From a virus: a stretch of 29,682 nucleotides of DNA. The stretch's first letter is position 1. Each line of letters begins with the position of its first letter. Of this stretch, positions 1 through 18,225 are shown piece after piece. The notes under the pieces are model-generated. The model made no database searches and was not told the DNA's origin. It was given only the letters and a program-made list of their open reading frames with translations. Location: positions 1 to 29,682 of the IMG/VR virus record IMGVR_UViG_3300042695_000486. One strand, given 5' to 3'. The position numbers were made by a program, and so were the translations under genes.

Positions 1-1
1 C

Positions 2-121: not shown

Positions 122-142
122 AAACTAGATCACACTCAGGAC

Positions 143-611: not shown

Positions 612-642
612 TTTCTCTTAAAAACTAGACTACACCGATACC

Positions 643-1462: not shown

Positions 1463-1483
1463 AAACTAGAACACAATACCCCC

Positions 1484-2443
1484 ATGCAGATTAACACGCT
1501 AGAAACCAAATTCGCCAAATGCTCCTCAATCGAGATTCCCGATTCCTACTTCAATAGGATGACTACGGGATGTTCCGAAATTGACATGATGTTTGGCACT
1601 GAACATCTTTCCGGCTTTATGTCTGGTAGTGCAATCTCCATCTGTGGCGTTGGAGGTTCTGGAAAATCTACCGCACTGTGTCAAATAGCTCAAATGCTTA
1701 CCACCCAAGGTAAACGTGCTGCCATTGCTTCTGGCGAGGAATCCCATCTTCAAATCGCCTATGCTTGCAAGCGTTTGGGTGTTACGGATGTTGATGTTGC
1801 CCATATCAGCAACGTGGAGGATATTGCGGAAGCCATGTCTGATTACGATTTCATGGTGGTGGATAGCTTTCAAGCCCTTCGTTCTTCCAATTCTAAAATG
1901 AAGAAGAGGGAATTCTACCAATACGCACAAGATTTGCTTCTATCAACTGCCAAGGAAACCGGATGCGTTCTGGTGTTCGTTCTCCATATCACAACCCAAG
2001 GTCTTCCCAAGGGAGGAACCGATATCATCCATGCCGTGGATGTGAACATGAAAGTCACGGTGGATAAGGAGGATGATTCCATGCGTCTCTTCCATGTATA
2101 TAAGAATCGCTTCGGGGAAACCAAGATTCACATGGCAATGATGACTTCCAAGGGATTTGACTTCAAGGGTGCTTATGTTGCTCCTGTGGAAGCTGAAAAG
2201 CCTAAGAAGAATAAGACTCCCACTGCGGAGATTCGCAAGGAAGAAATTCTCAATATGGATGAACCTCCTCACTTGACTCTGGATCGGGTGTGTGATAAGC
2301 TTGAGGTGTCCGGTCAAACCGCTGGCATTCTCCTTCGGGAGCTTGTTGGAGAGGGTAAGATGCAGAAATTTGGCAGGGGTGTGAACGCTGTCTGGAAAAT
2401 CGCACAAGAATGTCAGAAATTACACAAACATTTAACGAAATAA
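1484..2443 (+). CDS. RadA/Sms-like RecA-fold ATPase with C-terminal winged helix
   Basis: 319 aa. Walker A GVGGSGKST at residues 55-63, SGEES at 83-87 (the RadA-type sensor), Walker B FMVVDS at 123-128 and KNRFG at 207-211, the signature RadA uses in branch migration. This supports an ATP-driven DNA-binding role in recombination or replication. The N-terminal zinc finger and C-terminal Lon-like domain of bacterial RadA are missing; residues 245-307 instead resemble a winged helix-turn-helix (LTLDRVCDKLEVSGQTAGILLRELVGEGKMQKFGRGVNAVW, written here in pieces: LTLDRVCDKL then LRELVGEGKMQKFGRG). A short linker rich in Lys/Pro joins the two. It starts 15 nt after the module at 1459. Confidence 0.85.
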   Translation: MQINTLETKFAKCSSIEIPDSYFNRMTTGCSEIDMMFGTEHLSGFMSGSAISICGVGGSGKSTALCQIAQMLTTQGKRAAIASGEESHLQIAYACKRLGVTDVDVAHISNVEDIAEAMSDYDFMVVDSFQALRSSNSKMKKREFYQYAQDLLLSTAKETGCVLVFVLHITTQGLPKGGTDIIHAVDVNMKVTVDKEDDSMRLFHVYKNRFGETKIHMAMMTSKGFDFKGAYVAPVEAEKPKKNKTPTAEIRKEEILNMDEPPHLTLDRVCDKLEVSGQTAGILLRELVGEGKMQKFGRGVNAVWKIAQECQKLHKHLTK

Positions 2444-2447
2444 TATT

Positions 2448-2662
2448 ATGGAAGAACACGATTATTACAGAGTTCAGGTGACTAAAAAAATAAAAAACCC
2501 ATCATTCAGTATGATATTGAACATTCTTTTATTAGAAGATGGGAATCTACCAAGGATGCTTGCGTCGATCTGAATTTAAATAGTTCTAGTATGTCAAATC
2601 ATCTAAGTGGCAAAACCCGTCATTGTGGTGGTTATTTGTGGGAATTTGAAAATAAAAAATAA
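2448..2662 (+). pseudogene. frameshifted NUMOD1-like DNA-binding ORF
   Basis: From ATG 2448 the frame reads MEEHDYYRVQVTKKIK and then stops at 2571-2573. The other frame continues cleanly from about 2500 to TAA 2662 with PIIQYDIEHSFIRRWEST, a helix-turn-helix stretch (ACVDLNLNSSSMSNHLSG) and GGYLWEF. That is the NUMOD1-like pattern found beside homing endonucleases. One missing A in the A6 run near 2495 would restore one 71-residue protein. No nuclease domain remains, so this may be a remnant. Either a true frameshift, slippage or a sequence error. Confidence 0.65.
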
Positions 2663-2666
2663 TAAA

Positions 2667-3122
2667 ATGCGAGTTGTAATAAATAAATGTTTTGGGGGGT
2701 TTAGCCTTTCCAAAAAAGCGGTGCGAAGAATGGCGGAACTTCAAGGGAAGGAATGTTATTTTTTCAAAAATGATTTTAAAACCAATCAATACATCCCCAT
2801 TGAGGATGATGCTGAAGAATGGTGTTGGTTTGCATTCCATGTTCCCAATCCGAATGATTACCAATCTGAAAAAGAGTGGCGTGAAATGACGATTGAAGAG
2901 AGGCAAGCAGATAACAAGAAATGGGATGCCATCTCCATTGATAAAAGACTAAGCGATAGGAGTGATCCTGCTATGATTCAAGCTGTGGAAGAGTTGGGGG
3001 AAGCTGCCAACGGTGATTGTGCGGAACTGAAGATCGTGGAAATTCCTGATGGTGTGAAATACACTATTGCGGAATACGATGGTATGGAGCATATCGCAGA
3101 AGTCCATAACACTTGGGGATAA
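2667..3122 (+). CDS. conserved phage protein, KCFGGFSLS family (151 aa)
   Basis: The N-terminus MRVVINKCFGGFSLSKKA matches a conserved but uncharacterised protein I know from many tailed phages. The middle is rich in Trp/Glu (EEWREMTIEERQADNKKW) and the end is a small beta region. The start at 2667 is preferred over an upstream in-frame ATG at 2607, which lies inside the preceding frameshifted gene. No promoter module; transcribed from 1459. Confidence 0.75.
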   Translation: MRVVINKCFGGFSLSKKAVRRMAELQGKECYFFKNDFKTNQYIPIEDDAEEWCWFAFHVPNPNDYQSEKEWREMTIEERQADNKKWDAISIDKRLSDRSDPAMIQAVEELGEAANGDCAELKIVEIPDGVKYTIAEYDGMEHIAEVHNTWG

Positions 3123-3126
3123 GAAT

Positions 3127-3379
3127 ATGAAATTTTTTAACATTTTCAGAAAAGAAACTTGGTCGGTGATCAAGGAAGAACTCGCCGTTGTAACTGTTGG
3201 ATACTACGATTCTGGTTGGCCAATGGGACAAATTGAGGCAACCTTAATATTTGAAGAGAGTAACAAAGGAAACAAACGATGCTGGATGAAAGAACATTGA
3301 TGGGAACACTGTGGAGGAATTCAATGATCTGCCGAATCCCAAGAATTGTCAGATCATCACAAGAAGAATCAACGAATAA
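3127..3379 (+). pseudogene. frameshifted small hypothetical gene
   Basis: As written, the frame from 3127 stops at 3298-3300 after 57 aa (ending WMKEH). Shifting frame by removing one A near 3288 gives an open continuation NIDGNTVEEFNDLPNPKN to a TAA at 3377-3379 inside the next promoter module, where genes here normally end. So the intact gene was very likely about 83 aa. The family is not recognised. Confidence 0.65.
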
Positions 3380-3400
3380 AAACTAGAATACACTGATCCC

Positions 3401-3886
3401 ATGCCCGACATTGAAATTAACGGAACAAAATTGTGCGTATCTTTGGAAACCATCATCAATGGAATGTCCAAGGAACAGAAGAGAGAAGTCCTATCATGGC
3501 TTGCCACCGATGGGGAAGTCATGGAATCCGTGGTGGATCATATTCTGGGAAGGGATGAGCAAGGATGGTCAACGGGTGATCCAAACCGTTGCCAACAAAT
3601 CCTTGGGGAAGTGGAGGATTTCCATCTTGCTGATGTCAGATATAACTGGAAACCTTGGGATGAAATCAAGCAGAAATTGAAGAACATTCGTGCTGATGAG
3701 CGTCTGTATTGGGTTCTCTATCATCAAATTGACGCACAAACGAGTAGTATGGTGTTCAATGAATTACGGAGACTTGGGGTGGAATCCAATTACACAACCA
3801 AAGAGGCTGATGAGGATATTGCCACGATCCATGAGGTTATCAAGGATACGTTCAAACAGATGGCTAAAGATAAGGTTAAAAACTAG
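3401..3886 (+). CDS. hypothetical protein (161 aa)
   Basis: Starts 15 nt after the module at 3376-3386. Mostly helical, with an N-terminal segment MPDIEINGTKLCVSLETI resembling phage proteins that begin with a short beta pair. It ends -KVKN using AAA AAC TAG of the next module. The Trp-rich centre (YNWKPWDEIKQKL) suggests a globular soluble fold. Function not known. Confidence 0.75.
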   Translation: MPDIEINGTKLCVSLETIINGMSKEQKREVLSWLATDGEVMESVVDHILGRDEQGWSTGDPNRCQQILGEVEDFHLADVRYNWKPWDEIKQKLKNIRADERLYWVLYHQIDAQTSSMVFNELRRLGVESNYTTKEADEDIATIHEVIKDTFKQMAKDKVKN

Positions 3887-3900
3887 AATACAATAGCAAC

Positions 3901-4224
3901 ATGTTTAAGCTACCACAAATAATCATTGGCTGTATCCTATTCTTTATCGGCATGTCCATCCCTCTGGGATTCTTCAGCCTGTTTGGTATGTTATTGGCAC
4001 TTGTTGGCACGTTCTTTATCTCCCGTCCTTTCGCATTGGATAGCGGATTTGGGAATACTCCCATGTTCTTCCTGTTGGGCATGTTCGTGTTTATCCCCTC
4101 GTTCTTTTTAACACGAAAGACTTTCATTGAATTTGGTATGGATGACTTAACAATCGGGGCAATCCGTCTCACACTTTGTATGGTGGGGGGTGTGCTTGCC
4201 TTTCTCTCAATCTCAAAATCATAA
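3901..4224 (+). CDS. small multi-pass membrane protein (107 aa)
   Basis: Four hydrophobic segments at about residues 5-25, 26-42, 58-75 and 84-105, with few charged residues between them; no cleavable signal peptide. First gene of the unit 3901-5222, where 4226, 4407, 4612 and 4791 follow at 1-2 nt spacing or overlap. Likely host inner membrane; role unknown. Starts 15 nt after the module at 3876. Confidence 0.75.
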   Translation: MFKLPQIIIGCILFFIGMSIPLGFFSLFGMLLALVGTFFISRPFALDSGFGNTPMFFLLGMFVFIPSFFLTRKTFIEFGMDDLTIGAIRLTLCMVGGVLAFLSISKS

Positions 4225-4225
4225 T

Positions 4226-4405
4226 ATGACATTGGAACAATTCCAACAAACCAAGCAGAAAGAACTTGCAAATCTCATTCCATGTCGTAAGATCGCTTAC
4301 GAAGAGGGAACGGATCACAAGGTTGTTCTAAGCAATGACAAGTTCTGGGACTTATTCGCATTCTTCAAGAATCAATGGCACTACATTACAACAATTAAGA
4401 TATAA
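4226..4405 (+). CDS. hypothetical protein (59 aa)
   Basis: ATG follows the upstream stop by 1 nt (TAATATG), with no Shine-Dalgarno. Sequence MTLEQFQQTKQKELANLIPC starts with a helix, then an aromatic C-terminus (FWDLFAFFKNQWHYI). Not recognised; position in a tightly packed operon is the main evidence. Confidence 0.65.
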   Translation: MTLEQFQQTKQKELANLIPCRKIAYEEGTDHKVVLSNDKFWDLFAFFKNQWHYITTIKI

Positions 4406-4406
4406 C

Positions 4407-4610
4407 ATGACAAAGTATCAAAAATTATGGTTTGAAGAAGGTTATTATGATAACCAACAAGGGGAACATCCCGAAGCATTTTGTCAGGAAAAGTGGATGA
4501 AGTCCATATATGACTGTGGTTGGGGTGGTGAACAATTTACAATGATTGTGGAACACTTTCCATTCTACAAACAAGGAGCAACAAAAGCATATAACGAAAA
4601 AAACAAATAA
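4407..4610 (+). CDS. hypothetical protein (67 aa)
   Basis: Starts 1 nt after the previous stop. Rich in Tyr, Trp and Gly (WFEEGYYDNQQGEHPEAF, CGWGGEQF). No domain recognised. The C-terminus is Lys-rich (AYNEKNK). In-frame upstream ATGs are rejected because they overlap 4226-4405 in another frame. Confidence 0.65.
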   Translation: MTKYQKLWFEEGYYDNQQGEHPEAFCQEKWMKSIYDCGWGGEQFTMIVEHFPFYKQGATKAYNEKNK

Positions 4611-4611
4611 C

Positions 4612-4791
4612 ATGGCTAATAAAAAAACAAGGGCAAGTCGGGCAAGAGGATGGTGCAGCACACTGGATGAGCAAACCAATGGCAACAAAATCTTCAAGGG
4701 AGACGTTTGCGATACTGCATGGAACGCGAAAGCATCCAACAAGCGAGCGCGAAAGGTCTATGGTAGGATATCACAACAAGGCAAGGACTGA
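4612..4791 (+). CDS. small basic protein (59 aa)
   Basis: Strongly basic (KKTRASRARG at the start, KASNKRARKVYGR at the end), which could bind nucleic acid. Two Cys (residues about 15 and 33). It starts 1 nt after the upstream stop and its TGA overlaps the next ATG. Function inferred only from charge. Confidence 0.65.
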   Translation: MANKKTRASRARGWCSTLDEQTNGNKIFKGDVCDTAWNAKASNKRARKVYGRISQQGKD

Positions 4792-5222
4792 TGGGTAGCA
4801 TGTTTGACAACCGCAAGATTCTCCATGGCCTTCCAAAGGATGGTCAGAAGATCGAAGCCATTACTAACAAAACCAATTCGTGGTTTCTATCAGTGGTGGA
4901 AGATACTAAAAAGCTGAAGATTGGAAAGGAATATACTGTTCTCAAGACGGAACTCAATTCATCCAGTTCTTATGTGTGGCTTGAGGAATTTGGAAAAGAT
5001 GTATTCTTTAATATACATAGCTTTGAATGGGAACTCCCGAATCTTGATCCAAATGATCTGATTGGGTTTTTCGTTTCCGATATGAATACCATTCATCACA
5101 AATATGGGTGGGGTGTTCAAGTGGGGGAGAATATCAGACATGAGGGAAATCCCATGATCGTGGTGAAGTGTGAGAATAAGGAACATGTCGATTACATCAC
5201 AAGCGTAGAATTTAAAAACTAG
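4791..5222 (+). CDS. hypothetical protein (143 aa)
   Basis: Starts on the A of the previous TGA; a second ATG at 4800 is an alternative. Two beta-rich halves: residues 30-80 (GKEYTVLKTELNSSSSYVWL) look like a small barrel, the rest a strand-rich unit. Ends -FKN with AAA AAC TAG of the module at 5212. Not recognised. Confidence 0.7.
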   Translation: MGSMFDNRKILHGLPKDGQKIEAITNKTNSWFLSVVEDTKKLKIGKEYTVLKTELNSSSSYVWLEEFGKDVFFNIHSFEWELPNLDPNDLIGFFVSDMNTIHHKYGWGVQVGENIRHEGNPMIVVKCENKEHVDYITSVEFKN

Positions 5223-5236
5223 AATACAATAAAGAC

Positions 5237-5437
5237 ATGAAATACACAGTAATTTGGGAAGACCGCTGGCAATCAGGATCACATCATCATTGTATCACAA
5301 AGAAGACTTGGGTGGAAGCTAATTCCATTGAAGACCTTATGAAAGAATATGGTGATTATGCCCGATTCATTTTTGAGGGACATATCCTAACTTTGGGGGA
5401 AGAATTCAATCAGGAATTGGTTGATGTGATTGTTTAA
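5237..5437 (+). CDS. hypothetical protein (66 aa)
   Basis: A single promoter unit between modules at 5212 and 5434. The pattern MKYTVIWEDRWQSGSHHHC followed by VEANSIEDLMKEYGD fits a small alpha-beta protein in which a strand pair precedes a helix; this layout is common in phage ORFans. The HHHC cluster may bind metal. Confidence 0.7.
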   Translation: MKYTVIWEDRWQSGSHHHCITKKTWVEANSIEDLMKEYGDYARFIFEGHILTLGEEFNQELVDVIV

Positions 5438-5458
5438 AAACTAGAATACAATATCAAT

Positions 5459-5842
5459 ATGAATAACGAACAACAAATAAACGAAGCCCTTCAATGGCTA
5501 CAATCGACGGGTCAATCTTTGGTTGACTTCACTGGCGAACAATCTCCTCTCTACTGTCAGGAAGTTCTCAATTGGACATTCTATGGTAATATGATAACGG
5601 TAATCATCGGCATCATTTGGATTATTGGTTCTCTGTTTCTAATCAAACCGTGTATTAAAGCTTGGAATTTTGAATATGGTTATTGCAACAAAGGAGCAGC
5701 AATTTCTATATCTACCTCTTTGGCGTTGGTGATTGCAGGTGCATTCATACCAATTACTATTATGAGTGTTGTTGATATGGTTAAAATTAAGGTTGCACCA
5801 CGAATGGTATTGGTTGAGCATTTTCAACAAAAATTAAAGTAA
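5459..5842 (+). CDS. two-span membrane protein (127 aa)
   Basis: Two strong hydrophobic helices at about residues 44-64 (NMITVIIGIIWIIGSLFLI) and 80-107, with a polar N-terminus of about 40 residues and a polar tail. The topology suggests a hairpin in the inner membrane. Stop and next start overlap (TAATG), so it is coupled to 5842. Not recognised. Confidence 0.75.
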   Translation: MNNEQQINEALQWLQSTGQSLVDFTGEQSPLYCQEVLNWTFYGNMITVIIGIIWIIGSLFLIKPCIKAWNFEYGYCNKGAAISISTSLALVIAGAFIPITIMSVVDMVKIKVAPRMVLVEHFQQKLK

Positions 5843-6303
5843 TGCACCCCCAATTCAATCCCCAAGCCCTGCTTAACAAACCTCTGGAAATCTCCTATTG
5901 GAAAGATTCCATTGGGGAGGACGCAAAAATCGTTGACATTGGGGAAGACCAATATAAGATCGTATTTGAGCAAGCACCGGAAGACGATGATCAGGAAGAC
6001 CTTTTCATTTGGACAACCCAAGAACCGGAATCAATCGAAGGAGATAGAGCATTCTTCCGAAACATTGGAGCAACAAATTTCTATCTGAAAATCAAACAAA
6101 AACTAGAATACAATAACATTATGAAAACAACAGTAAAGGAACTGAGTGAGAAGCTGGGAGTAGATACCGTGTATGTGAACGGATTTCTTCAAACCCTAAT
6201 CAAGATGGGCAAGGCAAGCGTGGTAGGCAAGGTGAAGAAACCTAGCGGAACCCGTGGCAAGCCTTCCAATATCTACGAAATCAACGAAGGTATCGTTGAC
6301 TAA
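5842..6303 (+). CDS. read-through fusion of an acidic ORFan and a winged-helix protein
   Basis: 153 aa as an open frame. Residues 1-85 form an acidic protein ending ...FYLKIK. The frame then runs through a promoter module (6096-6106) and into a second protein starting at M 6121 (61 aa). That part has a helix-turn-helix (VKELSEKLGVDTVYVNGFL) and a wing rich in Lys/Gly (KPSGTRGKPSNIYEI). The module here reads CAAAAACTAG: its first base is C instead of T, so the stop TAA became CAA. The second gene can still start at 6121 from its own promoter. Both forms are probably made. Confidence 0.7.
   Translation: MHPQFNPQALLNKPLEISYWKDSIGEDAKIVDIGEDQYKIVFEQAPEDDDQEDLFIWTTQEPESIEGDRAFFRNIGATNFYLKIKQKLEYNNIMKTTVKELSEKLGVDTVYVNGFLQTLIKMGKASVVGKVKKPSGTRGKPSNIYEINEGIVD
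6096..6106 (+). promoter_or_regulatory. promoter module with lost stop codon
   Basis: The only copy where the module lies in the frame of the upstream gene's TAA but carries CAA instead. The -10-like TACAAT and the 15-nt spacing to ATG 6121 are intact, so promoter function should be unaffected while translation of the upstream gene continues through it. Confidence 0.7.
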
Positions 6304-6314
6304 CAATTTTCCAA

Positions 6315-6516
6315 TGGAGCAACGGTGTGGAAAATCTTAGACACACAGCAGAGTCGCTTGAAGTATCTCTGGATTAGTTTATCAGGCAAGAAAGAAGGAA
6401 AGACGAAACCCTTCCTCCTGACGCATCGAGTAGCCAGTCGTGGTGAAAGCCAGATATGTTGAGTAGATTGTGGGCATGATCAGCCTAGAGTGGGGGTAAG
6501 ACCCACTTGCTCCACC
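6315..6516 (+). ncRNA. candidate structured RNA with tRNA-like ends (about 200 nt)
   Basis: No gene fits 6304-6549. The ends pair perfectly (TGGAGCAA at 6315-6322 with TTGCTCCA at 6507-6514). Inside the 3' strand is a 5-bp stem with a 7-nt loop at 6490-6506 (GTGGG/CCCAC), spaced like a T-arm, then A and CC. The loop GGTAAGA lacks the normal TTC. GTGT/ACAC at 6325/6342 mimics a D stem. TATCTCTGG (6364) and CCAGATA (6450) may close an internal domain. A -10-like TAACAAT at 6301 would start RNA near 6314. Could be a tRNA with an insert or an unrelated RNA. Confidence 0.4.
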
Positions 6517-6549
6517 TTTTTAATAAATAAAACACTAACCACCGCGAAA

Positions 6550-6666
6550 ATGCGTGACCTGACGGCAAATGGAAGCTCTACCAAGTGGGGGACTGGCATT
6601 CTGCATAACGCCAATGTGGAGGCACGGGCGGACAACGCCGCACCGCCGAAGCCCCCGACTCAATAA
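6550..6666 (+). CDS. cassette ORF remnant running into attC (38 aa)
   Basis: Reads MRDLTANGSSTKWGTG...NANVEARADNAAPP and ends within the first attC-like site. The tail encoded by the site (NANVEARA) resembles that of the ORF ending at 7340 (NDQVEARRP), because both are translated attC arms. No promoter module. Probably the 3' end of a truncated gene cassette rather than a functional gene. Confidence 0.4.
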   Translation: MRDLTANGSSTKWGTGILHNANVEARADNAAPPKPPTQ

Positions 6667-6726
6667 CTACATGAAAACTACGAAATCAAAACACCCCGCC
6701 CGTTGCTCTCTCACGCCTTGTTCGTC
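6603..6726 (+). other. integron attC-like recombination site 1
   Basis: Left R''-like box GCATAAC (6603-6609), 6-nt spacer, then left arm GTGGAGGCACGGGCGG (6616-6631). The right arm at 6696-6714 pairs with all 16 bases and leaves exactly three unpaired T (6703, 6707, 6711). Then GCCTT and R' GTTCGTC (6720-6726). Long imperfect arms with a few extrahelical bases, an unpaired spacer and AAC/GTT ends are the hallmarks of attC sites folded by integron integrases. Oriented with the ORF upstream. No integrase gene in the window. Confidence 0.8.
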
Positions 6727-6748
6727 GTCTTTGATTTTGAAACGTCGG

Positions 6749-7012
6749 ATGCAACTCAAACGCATGGAAATCCAGATAGAGAAAAACGTCGCGTGGAATC
6801 TCGGCTACGATCCAAGCGATATCTGGCATCACGAACTACTCGACCGCCGCAACGAACTCTCACTGATCGTGGGTAAAACCGACCCCGAATGGTGGGCGAT
6901 CTACGACCGATTCCGGGACGCCGAAAACTGCAAGCGGCTGATGACCTTTCTTCCGACGAACGACCAAGCTGACCCGCTGCATGGGCGGGGGAAGACTCAA
7001 CCGGAGAAATAA
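6749..7012 (+). CDS. integron-cassette hypothetical protein (87 aa)
   Basis: The cassette body between attC-like sites 1 and 2. The start at 6749 (or ATG 6764) is chosen because in-frame ATGs at 6671 and upstream would translate attC arm sequence (HPARCSLTPCSSS), which is typical non-protein filler. Core: NLGYDPSDIWHHELLDRRN, TDPEWWAIYDRFRDAENCKR, helical. The C-terminus NDQADPL... is encoded by attC 2. GC-rich and without a phage promoter. Unknown function. Confidence 0.6.
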   Translation: MQLKRMEIQIEKNVAWNLGYDPSDIWHHELLDRRNELSLIVGKTDPEWWAIYDRFRDAENCKRLMTFLPTNDQADPLHGRGKTQPEK

Positions 7013-7083
7013 TATGCCGAATCACAGAAAACTCAGAGAAGAACAGGAAGGCCCATGCAGTTGGGTCCAGCGTCTGGTTCGCC
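6955..7083 (+). other. integron attC-like recombination site 2
   Basis: R''-like GACGAAC (6955-6961), spacer GACCAA, left arm at 6968-6986 (GCTGACCCGCTGCATGGGC). The right arm at 7051-7071 pairs along the whole length, with one G-T pair and two unpaired bases (7061, 7067). Then GTCTG and R' GTTCGCC (7077-7083). Same architecture as site 1 but different arm sequence, as expected for attC sites that share structure, not sequence. Confidence 0.8.
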
Positions 7084-7340
7084 GTTGGCGGTGGACACGC
7101 AGAGAGCGCGACATCATCCAGAACTGTGGATGCGTGACCTACTGCCCGAAGTGCCACGACATGCTCAACGATCAAGCCTACTGGCTGGCGAGCAATGGCG
7201 ACGGACTTGGAACCTACAAGTGCCGACTCTGCGGGAATGTCAGCGAGTGGCATTTCGGCATCGCTCCCGTGGCGCTGCTGATCTACTCGGCTCACACGAA
7301 GCATACGGCGAACGATCAAGTGGAGGCACGCCGACCATGA
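7014..7340 (+). CDS. cassette zinc-ribbon-like protein (108 aa)
   Basis: Cysteines form a zinc-ribbon-like set: CGC, CPKC (residues about 43-51) and CRLC near 75-80 (YKCRLCGNVSEWHFG). The N-terminal 25 residues are encoded inside attC 2, so the native start may lie further in. The C-terminus HTANDQVEARRP is attC-encoded. The stop overlaps the next ATG (ATGA). GC-rich; role unknown, metal binding inferred. Confidence 0.6.
   Translation: MPNHRKLREEQEGPCSWVQRLVRRWRWTRRERDIIQNCGCVTYCPKCHDMLNDQAYWLASNGDGLGTYKCRLCGNVSEWHFGIAPVALLIYSAHTKHTANDQVEARRP
7307..7336 (+). other. half attC-like site
   Basis: GGCGAAC, spacer GATCAA and left arm GTGGAGGCACGCC match the left halves of the neighbouring attC-like sites; the first ten arm bases equal those of site 1. 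I find no matching right arm downstream before 7470, so this is a left half only, perhaps left by deletion. Confidence 0.45.
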
Positions 7341-7612
7341 ATGCTCGAATACAGAAAGAAGCCAAACGTCTAGGTCTTGGAATCCGCCCCGGCGGGAAAT
7401 ACGTTCGAGGAGGGTGGACTGACGGAATGCCCGGAAAATGGGTGTTCAGCACCTACCCGCTCGATCCGTCTGGAAACGAAAAAGAGGAGGACATGGGACA
7501 CTGCGACGACAACGCCGAGGACGCCATCGAGCAGCTGGGCAAGGACGCTGAGTATTTCTTCGCTAACGTCACAACGCACGCGCCGGGAGCCAATGAGAAG
7601 CCTTTGAAATGA
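7337..7612 (+). CDS. cassette hypothetical protein (91 aa)
   Basis: Starts in the previous stop (ATGA). N-terminal MNARIQKEAKRLGLGIRPGGKY is basic; the acidic middle (DNAEDAIEQLGKDAEYFF) is helical. The last residues (THAPGANEKPLK) are encoded by attC-like site 4 of the island. GC-rich codon use unlike the AT-rich phage genes. Not recognised. Confidence 0.6.
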   Translation: MNARIQKEAKRLGLGIRPGGKYVRGGWTDGMPGKWVFSTYPLDPSGNEKEEDMGHCDDNAEDAIEQLGKDAEYFFANVTTHAPGANEKPLK

Positions 7613-7655
7613 AACTGGAGAGCTAGTCTCGGTCGTGTGCCGTGGCTTGTTCTCG
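7561..7655 (+). other. integron attC-like recombination site, weaker
   Basis: R''-like CGCTAAC (7561-7567), arm GCACGCGCCGGGAG (7576-7589), right arm CTCGGTCGTGTGCC (7628-7641), R' GTTCTCG (7649-7655). Arms pair for about 10-12 bp with two G-T pairs and two bulges. The order and spacing match sites 1 and 2, but pairing is less perfect. Confidence 0.55.
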
Positions 7656-7691
7656 CTCTTCCGAATTACCAACCAACCTACAAATCACGAT

Positions 7692-7946
7692 ATGACGATA
7701 CGAATCACAAAATGGAACGGACTCTGCCTCACGGCGGAAAAGAAACACCGCTGGTGCCTGAAAATATGGTGGCTGGGCAAATGGTGGGGACGCTGCGGCT
7801 TCTCATCCAGCGGGCGGGACTTCTACCACACGGATGTTAGCTACTACCATCACGGATGGACTCGGACGCGCCGGACGTGGATCGGCCCGATCATGGTCGA
7901 AGCTGAAAAGTCCCTGACGTGGGGAATCATTTCCGGAGAACAGTAA
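7692..7946 (+). CDS. cassette Trp-rich small protein (84 aa)
   Basis: Starts after the R' box of the preceding attC-like site, as a cassette ORF should. Very Trp/Arg-rich (HRWCLKIWWLGKWWGRCGF, WTRTRRTWIGP). The pattern of alternating aromatic strands suggests a small beta-sheet protein. No attC follows; the island seems cut at about 7950-8010, where phage sequence and promoters resume. Confidence 0.55.
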   Translation: MTIRITKWNGLCLTAEKKHRWCLKIWWLGKWWGRCGFSSSGRDFYHTDVSYYHHGWTRTRRTWIGPIMVEAEKSLTWGIISGEQ

Positions 7947-8037
7947 CTTATGACCCCCAATAAGTGTCCATAACCATGCCGGAATCAATTATGCGCTTTC
8001 CTTACTACATTCTTAAAAACTAGAACACAATAACACA

Positions 8038-8598
8038 ATGAGCAAAACGCTAATTACAACACTGTCGGTTCTTGGAGGTGTCATCCTCCTTGGAGTAATC
8101 CTTTTGGTTTCCGTTCTGGGAAGCTTCAACTCTTACACAAGATTTGAGAATCTTGCAAAAGCAGCACAAACGGATAATAAGAATATCCTTGATAACACTC
8201 GAAAATCCATTCGGGAAGCTGCCAACGTATCGGACAAGGAAGTGGAAGCCCTTACCAATATCATCACGGGTTATGCCGATGCAAGAGGGGGTAATACTGC
8301 CGGGGATGGTCAACTTGTCACTGTAGGTATGGTGACGGAAGCAGTCCCAAGTATCCAAGGTATTGAAACGCTGAAGAATCTCCAGAACATCGTGGTTGCA
8401 GGACGAAAGGATTGGCAAATGGCACAAACACGATTGGTTGATATCAAACGACAAGCGGATAATATGATTGGAACCGTACCATCTGGAACCATTCTGAAAT
8501 GGTTTGGTAAAAAGGAAATTGAAATTATCATCGTAACTTCCAAGGAAACCGAAGGTAATTTTGCCACTGGTGAGGATAATTCCAATTGGGTTGAGTGA
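8038..8598 (+). CDS. LemA-family membrane-anchored protein (186 aa)
   Basis: N-terminal hydrophobic helix at residues about 8-29 followed by FNSYTRFENLAKAAQTDNKN, then a long helical region and RKDWQMAQTRLVDIKRQADN, FGKKEIEI and TSKETEGNF. This matches phage LemA-like proteins: an N-terminal anchor and a helical bundle outside the membrane. The bacterial role of LemA is poorly known, and phage versions are uncharacterised. The stop overlaps the next gene (TGATG). First gene after the GC-rich island; module at 8013-8023. Confidence 0.75.
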   Translation: MSKTLITTLSVLGGVILLGVILLVSVLGSFNSYTRFENLAKAAQTDNKNILDNTRKSIREAANVSDKEVEALTNIITGYADARGGNTAGDGQLVTVGMVTEAVPSIQGIETLKNLQNIVVAGRKDWQMAQTRLVDIKRQADNMIGTVPSGTILKWFGKKEIEIIIVTSKETEGNFATGEDNSNWVE

Positions 8599-9668
8599 TG
8601 AGCGGATACTGGATATTCCTGTTGATGATAATCCCCGTGATCGCGGGGGTTGTCTCATGGCAAAAGTTCCACACAATTGAATTGTGGGAATCGGCAACAA
8701 GCGTGGGAGCGGCACTGGTTGTGATCATCTCTGTTTTTGGCATATCACAATGTAGCCTGAGTCATGATACTTATACCGAATCCGGTAGGATTATGTCGGT
8801 TGTCCACACTCCTAAATGGAAGGCTGAATGGACGGAGACGGAGACATACACCACAACCGATTCCAAGGGTAAATCCCATACACATACAAGACTGGTTACA
8901 AGAAGAAAAACACATTCCCCCACATGGGTTGCAGATACGACAATCGGTAGTATGCAAATCACGGAAGGATATTTTAATTACATTGGGAGACAACATGGAA
9001 TTCGTAAAGAGTTGGGGTATCGTCCCGATTATGATTCAGGAGATAGATATGATTATCATTCCACGGTATCTGATGATCCCGAATTTTGTGATTATCCGGT
9101 CAATGGAACTGCCATGTGGTTAAATCCAATCCTAACCCAAAAGGGATTGCGTGGATATGAAAAGCTATCAGACAATGAAATCCAACAATACGGACTATTT
9201 GATTATCCGAACCATGATAAATTCAAGTCATCCCGATTGTTGGGGGGTGTTCCCCTAAGCCATTGGGATTGGGATAAGATGAATACCTATCTATATGATC
9301 AAAGGGGGGTGAATGTTCTCATGGTCAAATTGGGTAGCATTGATACTGCCAAGAAATTCCAACAACATTGGAAGAACGGTAGGAAGAATGATCTGGTTCT
9401 ATGCTATGGTGATGGTTGGTCTTATGTGTTTGGATGGACTGATAAGGAACTGGTTAAGATGAATCTTCAGACGATCTTGTTGGATAATCCAATTGATATT
9501 AATATCATACCTTTGATAAAATCGGAAATTCTGAAAAATTACAAGCCTCATAATTGGGAGCAATATCAGGACGATGAATTTGTGGTAGAGACTTGGATGA
9601 TCGTCACGGCATTTCTCCTGATGATCGCAACCCAAGCAGGACTCTACTACAAGTTCCATAAAAACTAG
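8598..9668 (+). CDS. membrane protein coupled to LemA (356 aa)
   Basis: Two N-terminal transmembrane helices (residues about 4-20 and 33-53), a large soluble middle, and a C-terminal helix (ETWMIVTAFLLMIATQAGLYYKF). The soluble part starts with a Thr/Lys/His-rich strand region (TETYTTTDSKGKSHTHTR). ATG 8598 overlaps the LemA stop; a GTG at 8595 is possible but unnecessary. A two-gene operon suggests a shared envelope function. Ends -FHKN* in the module at 9658. Confidence 0.75.
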   Translation: MSGYWIFLLMIIPVIAGVVSWQKFHTIELWESATSVGAALVVIISVFGISQCSLSHDTYTESGRIMSVVHTPKWKAEWTETETYTTTDSKGKSHTHTRLVTRRKTHSPTWVADTTIGSMQITEGYFNYIGRQHGIRKELGYRPDYDSGDRYDYHSTVSDDPEFCDYPVNGTAMWLNPILTQKGLRGYEKLSDNEIQQYGLFDYPNHDKFKSSRLLGGVPLSHWDWDKMNTYLYDQRGVNVLMVKLGSIDTAKKFQQHWKNGRKNDLVLCYGDGWSYVFGWTDKELVKMNLQTILLDNPIDINIIPLIKSEILKNYKPHNWEQYQDDEFVVETWMIVTAFLLMIATQAGLYYKFHKN

Positions 9669-9682
9669 CGTATAATCGAAGT

Positions 9683-9928
9683 ATGAAACCAACAATCAGT
9701 CTGATTAAGTCCATCATTTGGAAAATGTATTATCACCTATCTTTAGGCAAGGATTACCAATCCAGTATGAAGAGTGCATCCAACATCTTCTCCAACGTGA
9801 TCGACTCCACGAACGGTAGGGTGTCGCATTTCCATAACATCAAAGGTGATCGCATTCGGGGATGGCATAAGCGAATCAAGTTCAATGTCAATGTCACACA
9901 ACATCCTTTAATCTCAAAATATTATTAA
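9683..9928 (+). CDS. small basic protein (81 aa)
   Basis: First of five close genes (9683-10910) driven by the module at 9658, whose -10 here is ATAAT. Basic, His-rich C-terminus (KGDRIRGWHKRIKFNVNV). No domain recognised. Confidence 0.65.
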   Translation: MKPTISLIKSIIWKMYYHLSLGKDYQSSMKSASNIFSNVIDSTNGRVSHFHNIKGDRIRGWHKRIKFNVNVTQHPLISKYY

Positions 9929-9929
9929 T

Positions 9930-10193
9930 ATGATGACTGATATTTACAAAATCGGAGAATACACCATCTTAATTGAACGTGATGAAGATGATGATGATTT
10001 CTGGTATTATCATAATGTAATTCTACCAAGCGGAGAACAACATATGTTAGATACTTGCAGAAATATCAATGATAAGGATATTGCGGCGTTTATATCATTC
10101 TATGAAGTCCATGATAGATTTCCAACACGCAAGGATCACCCAACGAACAAGGTCGGGGGACTGAATGCCAAGAGAATTCTTGAGATTAAATAA
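9930..10193 (+). CDS. acidic hypothetical protein (87 aa)
   Basis: Starts 1 nt after the previous stop; ATG 9933 is an alternative. MTDIYKIGEYTILIERDEDDDDFWYY is a beta hairpin with an acidic patch; then a helix and a basic tail. Not recognised. Confidence 0.65.
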   Translation: MMTDIYKIGEYTILIERDEDDDDFWYYHNVILPSGEQHMLDTCRNINDKDIAAFISFYEVHDRFPTRKDHPTNKVGGLNAKRILEIK

Positions 10194-10197
10194 TACC

Positions 10198-10452
10198 ATG
10201 TCCCAATGTAGATACTGTCAGTCCTCATCATATGGTCTAGGATGTCCCGCTTCCCCTTATGGAAAGCATGAACACTTTGATGATGAAAGGAAATGTGAAT
10301 TTTGTGGACAGACAGGCTATGGTGCAGGATGCACACTTAGTCCCGTGAAGAAGCACAAGCATGGTAGTGGCAAGAACAAGTGTAGGTGGTGTGGAAATAC
10401 GGCATCCGGTCATGGTTGCATTCATTCCCCAAGTGGATATCACGAAAAATAA
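10198..10452 (+). CDS. triple CxxC...C...H repeat protein, zinc-binding candidate (84 aa)
   Basis: Three tandem copies of C-x2-C-x8-C-x3-SP-x3-H(xH): C4/C7/C16/H24, C33/C36/C45/H53 and C62/C65/C74/H82, each with a GxGC and SP step. Each copy has four candidate ligands for one zinc ion. The whole protein is repeats, so it is likely a small binding or scaffold protein. The start at 10198 is chosen because it gives the first C4 repeat directly; no Shine-Dalgarno. Zinc binding is inferred from the residues. Confidence 0.75.
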   Translation: MSQCRYCQSSSYGLGCPASPYGKHEHFDDERKCEFCGQTGYGAGCTLSPVKKHKHGSGKNKCRWCGNTASGHGCIHSPSGYHEK

Positions 10453-10453
10453 T

Positions 10454-10645
10454 ATGAAAGAAATTAAATTTGATAATGATTTTAAGTTGGGTAAAGCAAC
10501 ACATAGGAATCTAGGAGTTGTTGAAATAACCGAAGCATGTCTATTTATGCAGGATTGTAATCCCGATGCTTCAACTCTTTATGTTGAACACGATGGCGAT
10601 ATTAAAGAAGTATCTCACAATATGATGATTCCTCAATCAAAATAA
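10454..10645 (+). CDS. hypothetical protein (63 aa)
   Basis: ATG 1 nt after the previous stop (AATATG). A beta-rich sequence (MKEIKFDNDFKLGKATHRNL, STLYVEHDGDIKEV). Not recognised; operon position supports it. Confidence 0.65.
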   Translation: MKEIKFDNDFKLGKATHRNLGVVEITEACLFMQDCNPDASTLYVEHDGDIKEVSHNMMIPQSK

Positions 10646-10646
10646 T

Positions 10647-10910
10647 ATGAAAGCATTGACAAAAGAACAATTGGAAGAACTTGGTTTCACGGTTAAGGAA
10701 AGACAACTTAAAAAAGGATTGAAAATTGATATCTATTGGGATGGTTGTTATTCTGATTATATCGGGCATTACGAAGAGTATCCATCGTTTAGGGATATCA
10801 TTGGAAACGTAGTGAGAGAGGTTGGAAACGAAACGGACAGGCTATGGAAGAACCGTTTGATGGAGAGGTTGTTTGGTGATGCGAACGACACTATCTATTA
10901 CGATATGTGA
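10647..10910 (+). CDS. hypothetical protein (87 aa)
   Basis: Last gene of the 9683 operon. An N-terminal helix (MKALTKEQLEELGFTVKER) precedes beta strands; the C-terminus is charged. Not recognised. Confidence 0.65.
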   Translation: MKALTKEQLEELGFTVKERQLKKGLKIDIYWDGCYSDYIGHYEEYPSFRDIIGNVVREVGNETDRLWKNRLMERLFGDANDTIYYDM

Positions 10911-10936
10911 ATTAAAAAATAGCACACACTGTTCTC

Positions 10937-11125
10937 ATGCCGAATAAAACATTTACAATCAAACAAGTTCGAGAATATGTTGAAGGGTGGTTGGGAGTAG
11001 AGGATGATATGCAAGCCCTGAACATGAATCAGATCAAGGCAATGCTGAACAATTCTCTGGTATGCGTGGACGATCCAAGCGATGGGATTGAGGATTATGT
11101 GGCGCGAAGTTTGGATAAAAACTAA
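10937..11125 (+). CDS. hypothetical protein (62 aa)
   Basis: The promoter module at 10912 is a variant (TTAAAAAATAG). The protein is helical and acidic with IKQVREYVEGWLGVEDDMQAL. Ends -LDKN*, where the AAC TAA belongs to the next module at 11115. Confidence 0.65.
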   Translation: MPNKTFTIKQVREYVEGWLGVEDDMQALNMNQIKAMLNNSLVCVDDPSDGIEDYVARSLDKN

Positions 11126-11139
11126 ATTATAATCAACCC

Positions 11140-11325
11140 ATGGAAGATTTCGTAGATAAATTTGAGGAGTGGACAGATGAAGAACTCACCAAAAGATGGA
11201 ACTATCTGGAAACCTGCAAGCTTTCCCATTATGTGGAACAAACGATGGATGCTATTGAGGCAAGTCTTAGCTATCGGAGAGTGGAAGCTTGGGATGCGGA
11301 TGGTAAGATTACCCAAAGGGGTTAA
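11140..11325 (+). CDS. helical protein (61 aa)
   Basis: Acidic start MEDFVDKFEEWTDEELTKRW, helical throughout. The -10 is TATAAT, the best consensus match in the window. Not recognised. Confidence 0.65.
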   Translation: MEDFVDKFEEWTDEELTKRWNYLETCKLSHYVEQTMDAIEASLSYRRVEAWDADGKITQRG

Positions 11326-11346
11326 AAACTAGACGATACTTGAGCC

Positions 11347-11685
11347 ATGAAGAGAACAACAATCAACAGAATCCAAAGGAAGCGAGAGCATCGCTATGAA
11401 ATTCTTAGACGGGTATTTTCAAATTTTTATGGTTTGAAGGACATGACACTCCCCAAAGCTATTGAAATCCTGAAACCACACAGGGGAGAGATTGCTGCTG
11501 AACTTCGCTATCTGAATTGGTATGATCAAATGAGGGGGTGGATGCCTTTAGATAATAGAAAGGGAGTGGATACCTATGGATATGAATCGGAAGAATCAAT
11601 CCTTATCAATCTTCAATATATTTCTGATCGTTTCCCCGCACAATTCCGCCTTCAATGGGTGCTGGATTTGCTGGATAAAAACTAG
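11347..11685 (+). CDS. hypothetical protein (112 aa)
   Basis: A basic helical N-terminus (MKRTTINRIQRKREHRYEIL) then an aromatic region. It ends -LLDKN*, from the module at 11675. Not recognised; DNA or RNA binding possible from charge only. Confidence 0.65.
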   Translation: MKRTTINRIQRKREHRYEILRRVFSNFYGLKDMTLPKAIEILKPHRGEIAAELRYLNWYDQMRGWMPLDNRKGVDTYGYESEESILINLQYISDRFPAQFRLQWVLDLLDKN

Positions 11686-11699
11686 AACACAATAACGCC

Positions 11700-11972
11700 A
11701 TGACCAAACAATACTACATGTTCATTCCTCTGGACATTGACAAGGAAAAGAACACCCGATTCGTTGTGGAGACGGATGGGATTCCTACTGGTAATCTATT
11801 CTCTGGTAGGGTCATCGCAAGGAACAAGAAAGCTTACTGGTATTTGGGAAGAGAATCGGATCAATGGGCAAATCCCATTGCGGATATGAAGAACGGCAGC
11901 AAGCCATCTTTCCTTCCCATCAATCTGGATGAGGCGATTGCGAAATTTGATGAGCATTGCATCGAAGGATAA
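11700..11972 (+). CDS. hypothetical protein (90 aa)
   Basis: MTKQYYMFIPLDIDKEKNTR opens a beta-rich fold with a Trp/Tyr centre (KKAYWYLGRESDQWANP). Followed after 4 nt by 11977, with which it shares a promoter. Not recognised. Confidence 0.65.
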   Translation: MTKQYYMFIPLDIDKEKNTRFVVETDGIPTGNLFSGRVIARNKKAYWYLGRESDQWANPIADMKNGSKPSFLPINLDEAIAKFDEHCIEG

Positions 11973-11976
11973 AATT

Positions 11977-12609
11977 ATGAGAAACGTTAATATACCTAAA
12001 GCCAGAGTCTATATTCGCGCCGATGCATTCGGTGGTAATGAGACTGATTTTGAACCTGCGTGGTTACTCAGTGTCAGAGCAATGCGGAATCGTCCGTTCT
12101 GCTTTCAAGTTTGGGTAGATCGATTTGCTGCTTGTTTCGACAAGATTCCCCCTCAATGTGTCTATCACTATGAGCCGAATGGTGAACAAGTTAATCTTCC
12201 GCTTCATAAAGTGCAAATGTGGGAGTGTTTAACGGGTAGTATCGAGGTTTGGCAGAAAAGTCAGCTTGCAGATGTCCCTATGTTGGTGAATATGGGGAAA
12301 GGTTGCGCCCCCATGACTGGACATTACTGGTTCACCATTGATTTCCTTCCAGAAGGACAAGCTGCTGGGATGATTGACATTGGCGATGTGGAACTTCTTG
12401 AAGAACACAAGGAGGGGAATGTTGTGAAGTTGTCAAATGGACAAATTGCAATCTATCCAAACAACCGTTTGAAATGGTTGCCAATCAGTCTTACTCCGAA
12501 AGGTGCAGTGGAGCGCATACCTGATTGGAATGTCGCTACAAACGAACAATGGGATGACTGGTGGCAAGACTCAACAGAAATCCTTGGGGATGCTAAATGG
12601 GCTTACTAA
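11977..12609 (+). CDS. hypothetical protein (210 aa)
   Basis: The start at 11977 is used because the upstream in-frame ATG at 11929 overlaps the previous gene. Long Cys- and Trp-containing soluble protein (IPKARVYIRADAFGGNETDF, EQWDDWWQDSTEIL). Two halves seem to repeat a beta layout but no domain is recognised. No promoter of its own. Confidence 0.7.
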   Translation: MRNVNIPKARVYIRADAFGGNETDFEPAWLLSVRAMRNRPFCFQVWVDRFAACFDKIPPQCVYHYEPNGEQVNLPLHKVQMWECLTGSIEVWQKSQLADVPMLVNMGKGCAPMTGHYWFTIDFLPEGQAAGMIDIGDVELLEEHKEGNVVKLSNGQIAIYPNNRLKWLPISLTPKGAVERIPDWNVATNEQWDDWWQDSTEILGDAKWAY

Positions 12610-12642
12610 CATGCTCTTTAAAAACTAGACTACACTGACAAC

Positions 12643-12956
12643 ATGAAGACAAGACCAAGAGCGATGAGAAGCTTTCCACCCGTTCTCTGAATCAGATGAC
12701 GGAAATCGTCTCTCTGGCATGGAATGGTGCAGGTAATCGCGGCGGGAACATGTTCTACCTTGCCCAAGGTGCGACGGAATTCTGGACTAGGGGCAATGGC
12801 ACTGGTGGATCGAACAAAGACCTTGGACGTAAGGCATACTCCGCTGAATTCGGCTTGGGTATGGAGAACAAGAGAAGCTTTGTATCTGCTCTTGTCAATC
12901 CCGTGGAGCGTGAGAAGCTTATCAAGCGGGGTGATCTGGTTCTTACTGCTGGATGA
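12643..12956 (+). pseudogene. gene with a frameshift a few codons after its start
   Basis: The ATG at the canonical 15-nt spacing (12643) gives only 15 aa. Adding one base after ATG AAG AC joins it to a clean frame reading KTKSDEKLSTRSLNQMTEIV and continuing to TGA 12954-12956 (about 104 aa). As written, translation could begin only at ATG 12696 (86 aa). The body (GGNMFYLAQGATEFWTRGNG, GGSNKDLG) is Gly/Asn-rich. Family not recognised. Confidence 0.6.
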
Positions 12957-12962
12957 TAGATT

Positions 12963-13068
12963 TGGGGTGTGCGACTAATGGTATGTCGGCATGTGGTCGC
13001 AACAGACATGATATCCACTGTCTGCCAGACGAGTCAGCGATGGAGGTTCAAGTCCTCCCGCCCCAACC
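12963..13068 (+). ncRNA. tRNA-like RNA with aberrant anticodon and variable arms
   Basis: Acceptor TGGGGTG (12963-12969) pairs fully with CGCCCCA (13059-13065), one G-T pair. D-arm CGAC/GTCG with a GG-containing 9-nt loop (12972-12988). T-arm GGAGG-TTCAAGT-CCTCC (13042-13058) has the canonical loop. Discriminator A, then CC. The centre is abnormal: CATGT/ACATG closes an 11-nt loop, followed by an extra hairpin at 13017-13034 (ACTGTCT/AGACAGT-like with one bulge). No readable 7-nt anticodon loop. Either a tRNA pseudogene, a tRNA with an insert, or a tRNA mimic. Confidence 0.55.
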
Positions 13069-13113
13069 TTTTAAAAACTAGATTAAGATTTGGTCGTAAC
13101 GAGAAAGAAACAT

Positions 13114-13428
13114 ATGAAAAAAGTAATCGAAGGAAAAGTCTATAACACGGAAACCGCAACTGAAATTGATTATTATTCCAATAATTATTATTCAACGGAT
13201 TTCAATCATTACACTGAATCGCTTTACAAAACCAAGAAGGGGAATTACTTTCTATATGGTTCTGGTAATGCCATGAGCAAATATTCATGTCCAGTTGGAA
13301 ACAACGGGCGGGGAGGTTCTTCTGATATCATCGCCCTAAGCGAATCAGAAGCCATGGAATGGATGGAAAAGTATGGGGATGCTGATATCACGGAGAAAGA
13401 ATTTTCCCATGCTCTGGTAGAGGCTTGA
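13114..13428 (+). CDS. conserved mobile-element/phage protein (104 aa)
   Basis: MKKVIEGKVYNTETATEIDY, then TESLYKTKKGNYFLYGSG and LSESEAMEWMEKYGDAD match a small conserved family seen in phages and integrative elements, function unknown. The start is odd: the module at 13071-13081 would place a start at 13096, where GTA stands, in frame with ATG 13114 six codons on. The gene therefore starts 33 nt after the module, unlike its neighbours. Confidence 0.75.
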   Translation: MKKVIEGKVYNTETATEIDYYSNNYYSTDFNHYTESLYKTKKGNYFLYGSGNAMSKYSCPVGNNGRGGSSDIIALSESEAMEWMEKYGDADITEKEFSHALVEA

Positions 13429-13439
13429 GTGTCAAAAAC

Positions 13440-13510
13440 AGCTTCCGATTAATCCCGCTCGGACGGGAAAAATGCTGAGACGGAAGGAACGGGAATAGCA
13501 TTACGCCCGA
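13440..13510 (+). ncRNA. candidate pseudoknot RNA
   Basis: In an 88-nt gene-free gap. Three helices: CTTCCG (13442-13447) with CGGAAG (13481-13486); TCCCG (13453-13457) with CGGGA (13464-13468); AATGCT (13471-13476) with AGCATT (13497-13502). The first helix's 3' strand lies in the loop of the third, which makes a pseudoknot. It could be an independent RNA or a 3' element of the upstream mRNA. Not recognised as a known riboswitch. Confidence 0.4.
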
Positions 13511-13541
13511 CCACTTTTAAAAACTAGATTAAGATTTGGAT

Positions 13542-13775: not shown

Positions 13776-13796
13776 AAACTAGATTAATATTTGAAC

Positions 13797-13973: not shown

Positions 13974-13987
13974 ACCACAATCAAACC

Positions 13988-17794: not shown

Positions 17795-17959
17795 ATGACT
17801 GATTACATTGAACACAACGGCAAAGGTATCACTATTCTATTCCCCTCTGGAATGTTTGAGTATTATTCCGATACGCAAGAACGTTTTCTCAAGTTTGATG
17901 ACATGGAAGAGTGTAAGGAATCCATCGACAATGAGCAGGAATTTCTATTTAAAAACTAA
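17795..17959 (+). CDS. hypothetical protein (54 aa)
   Basis: MTDYIEHNGKGITILFPSGM has a beta hairpin; an acidic helix (KFDDMEECKESIDNEQEF) follows. It ends -LFKN* by the module at 17949, which precedes an attC-like site. Confidence 0.65.
   Translation: MTDYIEHNGKGITILFPSGMFEYYSDTQERFLKFDDMEECKESIDNEQEFLFKN
17949..17959 (+). promoter_or_regulatory. promoter module abutting an attC-like site
   Basis: Core intact and the -10 is CAATAT, but no ATG stands at +15; instead GACCAA of an attC left arm begins at 17969. The cassette appears to be joined to the phage right behind the module, where the R'' box should be, so a promoter now reads into a captured cassette. Confidence 0.6.
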
Positions 17960-17967
17960 ACCAATAT

Positions 17968-18058
17968 CGACCAAGGTGAGGCACAGCCTCCCGCCGAAAA
18001 TCTATGAATACACCTGAGACTCAACGGGAGGCTGTTGTCCTCCACCGCCTTGTTAGCG
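17968..18058 (+). other. integron attC-like recombination site, captured
   Basis: Left arm 17975-17993 (GGTGAGGCACAGCCTCCCG) pairs with 18025-18046 over 19 bp, leaving exactly three unpaired bases (18035, 18038, 18042). Then GCCTT and R' GTTAGCG (18052-18058). The left box reads CAATATC rather than NNNNAAC, so it is eroded or was replaced at the joint. 10 kb from the other attC-like sites. Confidence 0.75.
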
Positions 18059-18225
18059 ATTTGAAATCTCGCTGCAACCGACACGCGAATGGAGAGTGTA
18101 TGTCGCTCGTCTGCCTCTATAACGGCGGATACGAGCACGGCACAAAACCAGACTACAATTTGGCAACATGCGAAGTCCACGAGCAGGTGGTAGCTCTCGA
18201 ATCTCTTATCGCTAACAAGCCATGA
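18004..18225 (+). CDS. captured cassette Cys/His protein (73 aa)
   Basis: C-x3-H-x4-EC-x4-C (residues about 23-37) and ATCEVHEQ near 58 form a likely zinc site. GC-richer than its neighbours. The ATG at 18004 is in the attC loop; ATG 18100 is an alternative but would lose the first Cys/His. The stop overlaps the next gene (ATGA). Function unknown. Confidence 0.6.
   Translation: MNTPETQREAVVLHRLVSDLKSRCNRHANGECMSLVCLYNGGYEHGTKPDYNLATCEVHEQVVALESLIANKP

Follow-up and report, generated by a model that had tools for sequence, protein, structure and literature searches.

The window, i.e., the whole stretch of DNA analysed here, makes up a whole IMG/VR virus record (29,682 bases) and is part of a large tailed phage. 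At one locus it carries an array of integron-type gene cassettes (array A), with three attC sites and a half site, and a single cassette lies apart from it at 18 kb (Table 1). The attC sites are on the minus strand and the ORFs run antisense to them, an element that the initial annotation of this DNA did not include; both internal cassettes of the window that were scored are reversed relative to their attC (2/2).

Table 1. Features of the cassette array and of the single cassette in the window.
Feature	Position	Strand	Remarks
ORF 0, 38 aa	6550..6666	+	N-terminal part common with sibling; C-terminal part enters attC 1 and differs
attC site 1, left array end	6603..6726	-	R1 24.2 bits, E 4.7e-5; arms pair
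Cassette array A, 1332 bp, between G|TT cores	6609..7940		Another array, of 613 bp, there in sibling G005
Cassette ORF 1, 113 aa	6671..7012	+	Start inside attC 1
attC site 2	6955..7083	-	R1 28.1 bits, E 3.8e-6; fold z -2.80
Cassette ORF 2, 108 aa	7014..7340	+	Start inside attC 2; zinc-ribbon-like
Half attC, left arm only	7307..7335	-	Visible in sequence, GAAC at 7310
Cassette ORF 3, 91 aa	7337..7612	+	Start just past half site
attC site 3	7561..7655	-	R1 39.6 bits, E 2.3e-9
Cassette ORF 4, 84 aa	7692..7946	+	Stop codon in phage flank
Promoter-like motif AAAAACTA...AATAT	17951..17967	+	Immediately before single cassette; minus-strand core G|ATATT
attC of single 18-kb cassette	17962..18058	-	R1 29.1 bits, E 2e-6
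Single cassette, 248 bp	17968..18215		Missing from relative L122 (empty site)
ORF of single cassette, 73 aa	18004..18225	+	Start inside attC, end in phage flank

By all signs the window is a fragment of a larger phage genome. One related record (G004) spans it entirely at 99.99% identity, and another (G001, 177,639 bases) matches its bases 1-14089 at 100%. Over 3000-11000, four contigs (L001-L004) match at 100% (L003 to 9601), a sibling phage, G005 (207,489 bases; also L005), shows 96.1-99.7% identity in its three long matches, and L006 and L007 show 73-91% in their longer matches. Neighbouring genes are phage-like, e.g., 8038-8598 belongs to a virion structural family (E 2.5e-30). A blastn search of 4800-9700 against 50,697 phage records returned no match, and neither did one of 6500-8000 against 72,556 plasmid records. 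Two further contigs (L015 and L016) likewise contain the flank pattern GGCATTCTGCATAACG; they were set aside because their surroundings are unlike this phage. Elsewhere in the window, 25232-25795 is a repetitive ORF rich in alanine and serine (SAASAAWSAAWS...).

Directly before the array, the segment 6313-6518 resembles a structured RNA, with a closing stem GGAGCAA/UUGCUCC and a T-arm-like 3′ stem-loop. Its fold has a minimum free energy of -62 (z -1.5; 17 of 200 shuffles equally good), a search of 6290-8020 against Rfam up to E 1 gave no match, and the segment is nearly identical in G005.

The initial annotation had described the ORFs of the array as GC-rich and as using no phage promoters, and the sequence agrees with both points. 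GC content is 55.9% in the array and 52.8% in the 18-kb cassette, against 41.7% in the remaining window. The motif AAAAACTA occurs 65 times on the plus strand of the window and never on the minus strand; no copy falls within 6130-8010, and none lies directly before the array.

Most cassette ORFs have no match to known families. The five cassette ORFs of the window hit no family in NCBIfam or PADLOC; in Pfam, ORFs 1-3 gave sub-threshold matches only (one for ORF 1), and ORF 4 and the 18-kb ORF gave none. There is no PHROG match for ORF 1. ORF 2 is related to phrog_4005 (unknown function, 6.3e-8) and to an HNH family (1.1e-5), and a search of its protein in genome_contigs returned no confirmed relative. 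The ATG of ORF 4 lies 36 bases beyond site 3, and an alternative GTG at 7635, inside that site, would give a product of 103 aa.

attC sites and the bacterial covariance model

Because circularity was to be avoided, we built a covariance model, R1, solely from attC sites of bacterial (Verrucomicrobiota) contigs (n = 35). A pairing scan gave a degenerate attC pattern, which was searched in genome_contigs and matched 28 stretches, nine of them with Verrucomicrobiota names, including three contigs of Haloferula luteola. The training sites are 35 of the 48 listed by the pairing scan at seven loci (five named loci and two contigs around integron-integrase matches). The structure, 17 pairs, was set by hand on alignment A1, with column 22 left unpaired. 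Its covariation score is 0.356, compared with 0.134 in shuffles (0/500 as high) and at most 0.190 when the partner was slid. Three of five covariation measures lie above all 500 shuffles; the two that do not are pairs with double changes (40/500) and further pair types (178/500). RNAalifold, unaided, recovered 7 pairs of the L-box helix and one unpaired base in the 5′ arm (column 16).

When applied to the window, R1 finds four sites under E 0.01, all on the minus strand, with polarity given by the unpaired 5′-arm bases; the fifth-best of the 18 matches listed reaches 8.9 bits (E 0.88). The four sites show AAC/GTT boxes and paired L boxes. The three attC-like sites proposed by the initial annotation are real, since R1 returns all of them at identical coordinates (E 4.7e-5 to 2.3e-9), and the fourth, in the 18-kb cassette, is an addition to that list. 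The ranking has to be revised, since the third site, which had been called weaker, scores best. The proposed half site is visible in the sequence but goes unreported by R1 up to E 10; its arm, AACGATCAAGTGGAGGCACGCCG, recurs in a site of the phage contig L060, and it probably marks two fused cassettes. Folding energy alone does not establish attC sites: the minus-strand z-score of site 2 is negative (Table 1), and those of sites 1 and 3 are +1.06 and +1.60.

Over 617,254 bases of related phage records, R1 gave six matches under E 0.01 and a seventh at E 7.7. Three of the six are the copy of array A in G001, two form the array of G005 (array B) and one belongs to a single cassette of G005, so that all six fall in cassettes recognised by sequence comparison. 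On 232 kb of G007, G008 and G009 there was no match up to E 10. The attC family of the window is also present in arrays of Verrucomicrobiota genomes. Searches covering the nine Verrucomicrobiota-named stretches, L084 and L072 found sites under E 0.01 in seven of the nine (not L062 and L071) and in L084, and no site in L072; matches in L063, L068, L079, L083, L085, L110 and L113 are partly by construction, because R1 was trained on those loci.

Exchange of arrays and single cassettes between relatives

At the array locus, the sibling G005 carries array B, 613 bp long, with two attC sites and other ORFs, and the two arrays have the edges CATAAC|GCC and AAC|AGTAAC in common. The 18-kb cassette is missing in L122; its flanks, rejoined at the core, match the empty site at 56/60 positions with no gap, and the insertion was therefore conservative, with no target duplication. 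By sequence comparison, then, the cassettes are mobile, being swapped or absent between close relatives. It had been proposed that cassettes were captured from an integron and kept as a block. The first half of that proposal is supported in so far as these are integron-type cassettes with no detected local integrase; the second is not supported, given the different array between the same edges in the sibling and the separate cassette at 18 kb whose site is empty in a relative. Two other contigs, L006 and L007, were considered as precise empty array sites and rejected: a block of ~6300-8014 is missing from them and another segment, tRNA-like by eye, is found there.

The target cores reconstructed on the minus strand at all three insertion points are G|TTAT, G|ATAT and G|TTAT, and each fits the core consensus quoted, as GWTMW or GNT, in a passage of PMC4618277. 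As aligned here, the units in the window follow the rule for integron cassettes, i.e., they are G|TT-bounded and conservatively inserted, and the same rule applies in the phage contig L131.

In the window, an AT-rich box and then a start codon usually come after the promoter-like motif AAAAACTA, a regular layout with one promoter per gene. A single cassette similar to that of the window, 291 bp long, is located at 59 kb in G005 behind a AAAAACTA-type motif. Its ORF is of the Lar type, with matches to PF14354 (E 2e-6, 28.4 bits for a cut-off of 28.6), phrog_599 (2.9e-8) and TIGR03655 (26.3 for a cut-off of 39.6); from these profiles, the cargo is likely a counter-defence gene for Lar-type anti-restriction. 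This 59-kb site is without an empty counterpart because the gene behind it has no other relative, matching nothing except itself in viral_contigs.

Cassette orientation and integrases

A cassette ORF usually runs in the direction of its attC, although this is not absolute, and in canonical integrons the attC sites point away from intI. The bacterial contigs L113 and L110 have their array on one side of intI, and the attC sites, read AACAAG...CGTT, point away from it. Among internal cassettes, 45 of the 53 scored in phage contigs are reversed, compared with 6/48 in bacterial arrays, where 42/48 are canonical (Fisher 6e-14, cassettes within one contig not being independent). The two groups were assigned by hand, and one interval per group was dropped for having no ORF of 50 aa. 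This count of internal cassettes replaced a first, looser one (38/49 in phages, 9/55 in bacteria) because the latter was distorted at array ends. The ORF starts inside the attC in 34 of the 45 reversed phage cassettes.

Phage status was taken from IMG/VR membership and from terminase, DnaB, RecT, primase or endolysin families in the scanned records. Such hallmarks were seen in L054, L055, L058, L059, L060, L084 and L131; L053, L056 and L057, with one protein scanned each, gave no PHROG match. Two members of the phage group, L067 (four reversed, two canonical; no phage hallmark) and L084 (six reversed, two canonical; labelled Acidobacteriales, with a phage-type DnaB helicase), can be left out, and the count is then 35/39. 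At 1659-5505 of the latter, a MAG contig, nine attC sites with mostly reversed ORFs lie behind the DnaB-type helicase, and it is likely of phage origin and assigned to the MAG by binning.

No PF00589 integrase was found in the window, as the initial annotation had stated, nor in any of nine relatives, most of these records being fragments; therefore, one presumably acted in trans. In a search confined to the phage-type attI motif ACTGATTCAACCGC, with two mismatches allowed, the window, G001 and G005 had no copy. None of nine array-bearing virus records (L017 and L053-L060) has a TIGR02249 match over the cut-off.

IntI-like genes do occur in other phage sequences. In Haloferula luteola, L117 carries at 8208-10490 such a gene together with two reversed cassettes and the attI motif; a gene for a Mu-like protease (PF10123) lies nearby, and this is probably a prophage-borne integron. 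With this gene as the query, tblastn matched five contigs of IMG/VR: L127, which is the same prophage, at 100%, and L128-L131 at 78-80%. L128, which begins directly before intI and has no sites, and L129 look like one phage. The contigs L127, L129, L130 and L131 pair an IntI-like gene with reversed-type arrays: nine attC sites of L131 precede the gene and one more lies apart, L130 has six under E 0.01 and a seventh at 0.29, L129 has two and a third at 0.013, and L127 has two. With TIGR02249 (cut-off 265) their proteins score 236.0 bits (L131), 260.3 (L130), 253.8 (L129) and 247.8 (L117, the same protein as L127), and the same proteins score 103-119 with XerC/XerD models and 123-138 with XerA_Arch. 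Weaker TIGR02249 matches were present in 14/14 control genomes, none above the cut-off.

Between array and intI, these four contigs have AACSACTGATTCAACCGCNNSCGCGGTTT conserved and a variable sequence left of AAC, which makes AACSACTGATTCAACCGCNNSCGCGGTTT a candidate attI-like site. L131 also carries, at 13024-13355, a second copy of the attI-like motif and, beside it, a 290-bp unit running from GAAC to GAAC. This unit is 100% identical to a copy in the array, and the two places have nothing in common beyond GAAC on either side. Since an identical unit is found in two places, the order within it is attC first and ORF second.

The direction of intI is not uniform between the bacterial contigs. 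In L113 (TIGR02249 317 bits) it diverges from the array, whereas in L110 (2910-6258, Verrucomicrobiales MAG) the integrase is transcribed toward the array, an atypical arrangement unlike that of L113 from the same MAG. R1 found no site beside the integrases of L111, L112, L114, L115 and L116.

Origin of the cassettes

Our main reading, to which we give a probability of roughly 0.8, is that this is a phage with mobile integron cassettes and no detected integrase, that an integrase acting in trans inserts cassettes at G|WT cores, and that reversed cassettes accumulate. The integron integrase would be encoded on the host chromosome or else by a co-infecting phage, or a prophage, that carries an intI. 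It would recombine attC, folded as a single strand, with an attG-type site, a G|WT core, of the phage. For two of the three insertions the target would be the antisense strand of a promoter -10 region, a link drawn from the insertions at 18 kb in the window and at 59 kb in G005. The AT-rich -10 box, read antisense, offers a G|WT core, so that insertion would leave the promoter facing the cassette; since the attC would then lie next to the promoter, only ORFs running against the attC would be read from it. Phages would in this way accumulate reversed cassettes, in which the attC hairpin would form the 5′ leader and often hold the start codon. The two promoter insertions, together with the polarity count, suggest such promoter-driven reading.

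Alternatively, genuine attC cassettes may now be moved between phages by homologous recombination, through annealing at the attC arms, with capture being a past event. The undetected integrase in this phage (PF00589, window and nine relatives) is consistent with such a history, as are the outer arms of attC 1, which are alike in arrays A and B around a different inner stem, the very similar ORF body behind different hairpins in L057 and L059, and the RecT and exonuclease carried by the array-bearing phage contig L060. However, both the 18-kb empty site and the L131 repeat show cuts at the core, the copies in L131 have only GAAC in common at both sides, and the three insertion points lie in different phage sequences. 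We regard recombination in place of an integrase as unlikely, while giving it real weight; phage annealing at common attC arms may add to cassette exchange.

Hairpins that so often contain a start could also be a repeat family of the phages themselves, e.g., translational leaders whose loop holds the start codon, merely resembling attC. The 34/45 reversed ORFs that start inside the attC and the recurrence of the outer arms would suit such a family, but a model derived from bacterial arrays, of which two (L113 and L110) have an integrase on the contig, recognises the sites, such sites in phages adjoin IntI-like genes as well as a conserved attI-like site, and the units are mobile, with their cuts at G|TT; we find this reading very improbable. 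Even less credible are chance inverted repeats in GC-rich DNA. The folding energy of sites 1 and 3, no better than that of shuffles, is what chance would give, yet the R1 scores (24.2-39.6 bits, with the next match at 8.9), the swapped arrays and the empty site all speak against it.

Beyond insertion by an integrase in trans, we hypothesize that Verrucomicrobiota phages own a distinct operon-type integron lineage, in which cassette genes and intI have one transcription direction and the attC is a 5′ leader and start-codon hairpin. Its cassettes would jump into promoters of unrelated integrase-less phages and constitute a common gene pool that includes counter-defence. We hold the chances of this broader proposal to be about even.

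The arrays of Verrucomicrobiota (Haloferula luteola and MAGs) are similar to those of the phages in attC family, R and L boxes and array form, and differ in their canonical cassettes (42/48). Loot et al. (2024), cited in PMC12901181 and PMC11023631, reportedly described attG-mediated cassette insertion into genomes. The likeness lies in a cassette placed outside an integron at a degenerate core; here, in contrast, reversed cassettes are inserted and their targets lie in a phage, two of three at promoters. In the atypical Treponema integrons, as presented in excerpts of PMC3607928, intI and cassette genes also have one direction, as in the phage arrays. In Treponema, transcription of intI heads toward attI; in the phage arrays it heads away from the attI-like site, and it is the ORFs that are turned.

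Integrase-less attC clusters in phages are already known. According to sections of Qi et al. 2023 (PMC9892861), 17 CALINs (attC clusters without integrase) are found in phages, IntI1 recombined five of six phage sites tested, a complete integron occurs in temperate phages and attC directions diverge in one phage; by term count, "Verrucomicrobi" and "attG" are absent from its text. The window resembles these CALINs in having integrase-less attC clusters in a phage genome and is unlike them, as far as those sections describe them, in its ORFs against attC, its single cassette with an empty site at a promoter and its alternative sibling arrays. In full-text searches of an open-access library, we found no description of reversed phage cassettes.

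Cassette insertion and array replacement in phage genomes are thus seen by comparing sequences directly, through the empty site, the alternative arrays and the duplicated unit, which goes beyond the mere presence of attC. If the reversed form is true, phages adapted the integron to the way they transcribe their own genes, and its cassettes would be a gene pool common to phages, possibly with anti-restriction genes. How integrase-less phages gain cassettes becomes testable.

As a minor observation, L115, a contig of an Akkermansiaceae MAG, carries at 752-3596 an integron integrase that has no relative in viral_contigs and scores 308 bits with TIGR02249, above the cut-off. Next to the gene is an ORF of 586 aa that weakly matches a terminase family (phrog_38, 7.8e-4), and it is possible that this is a second phage-borne integrase type.
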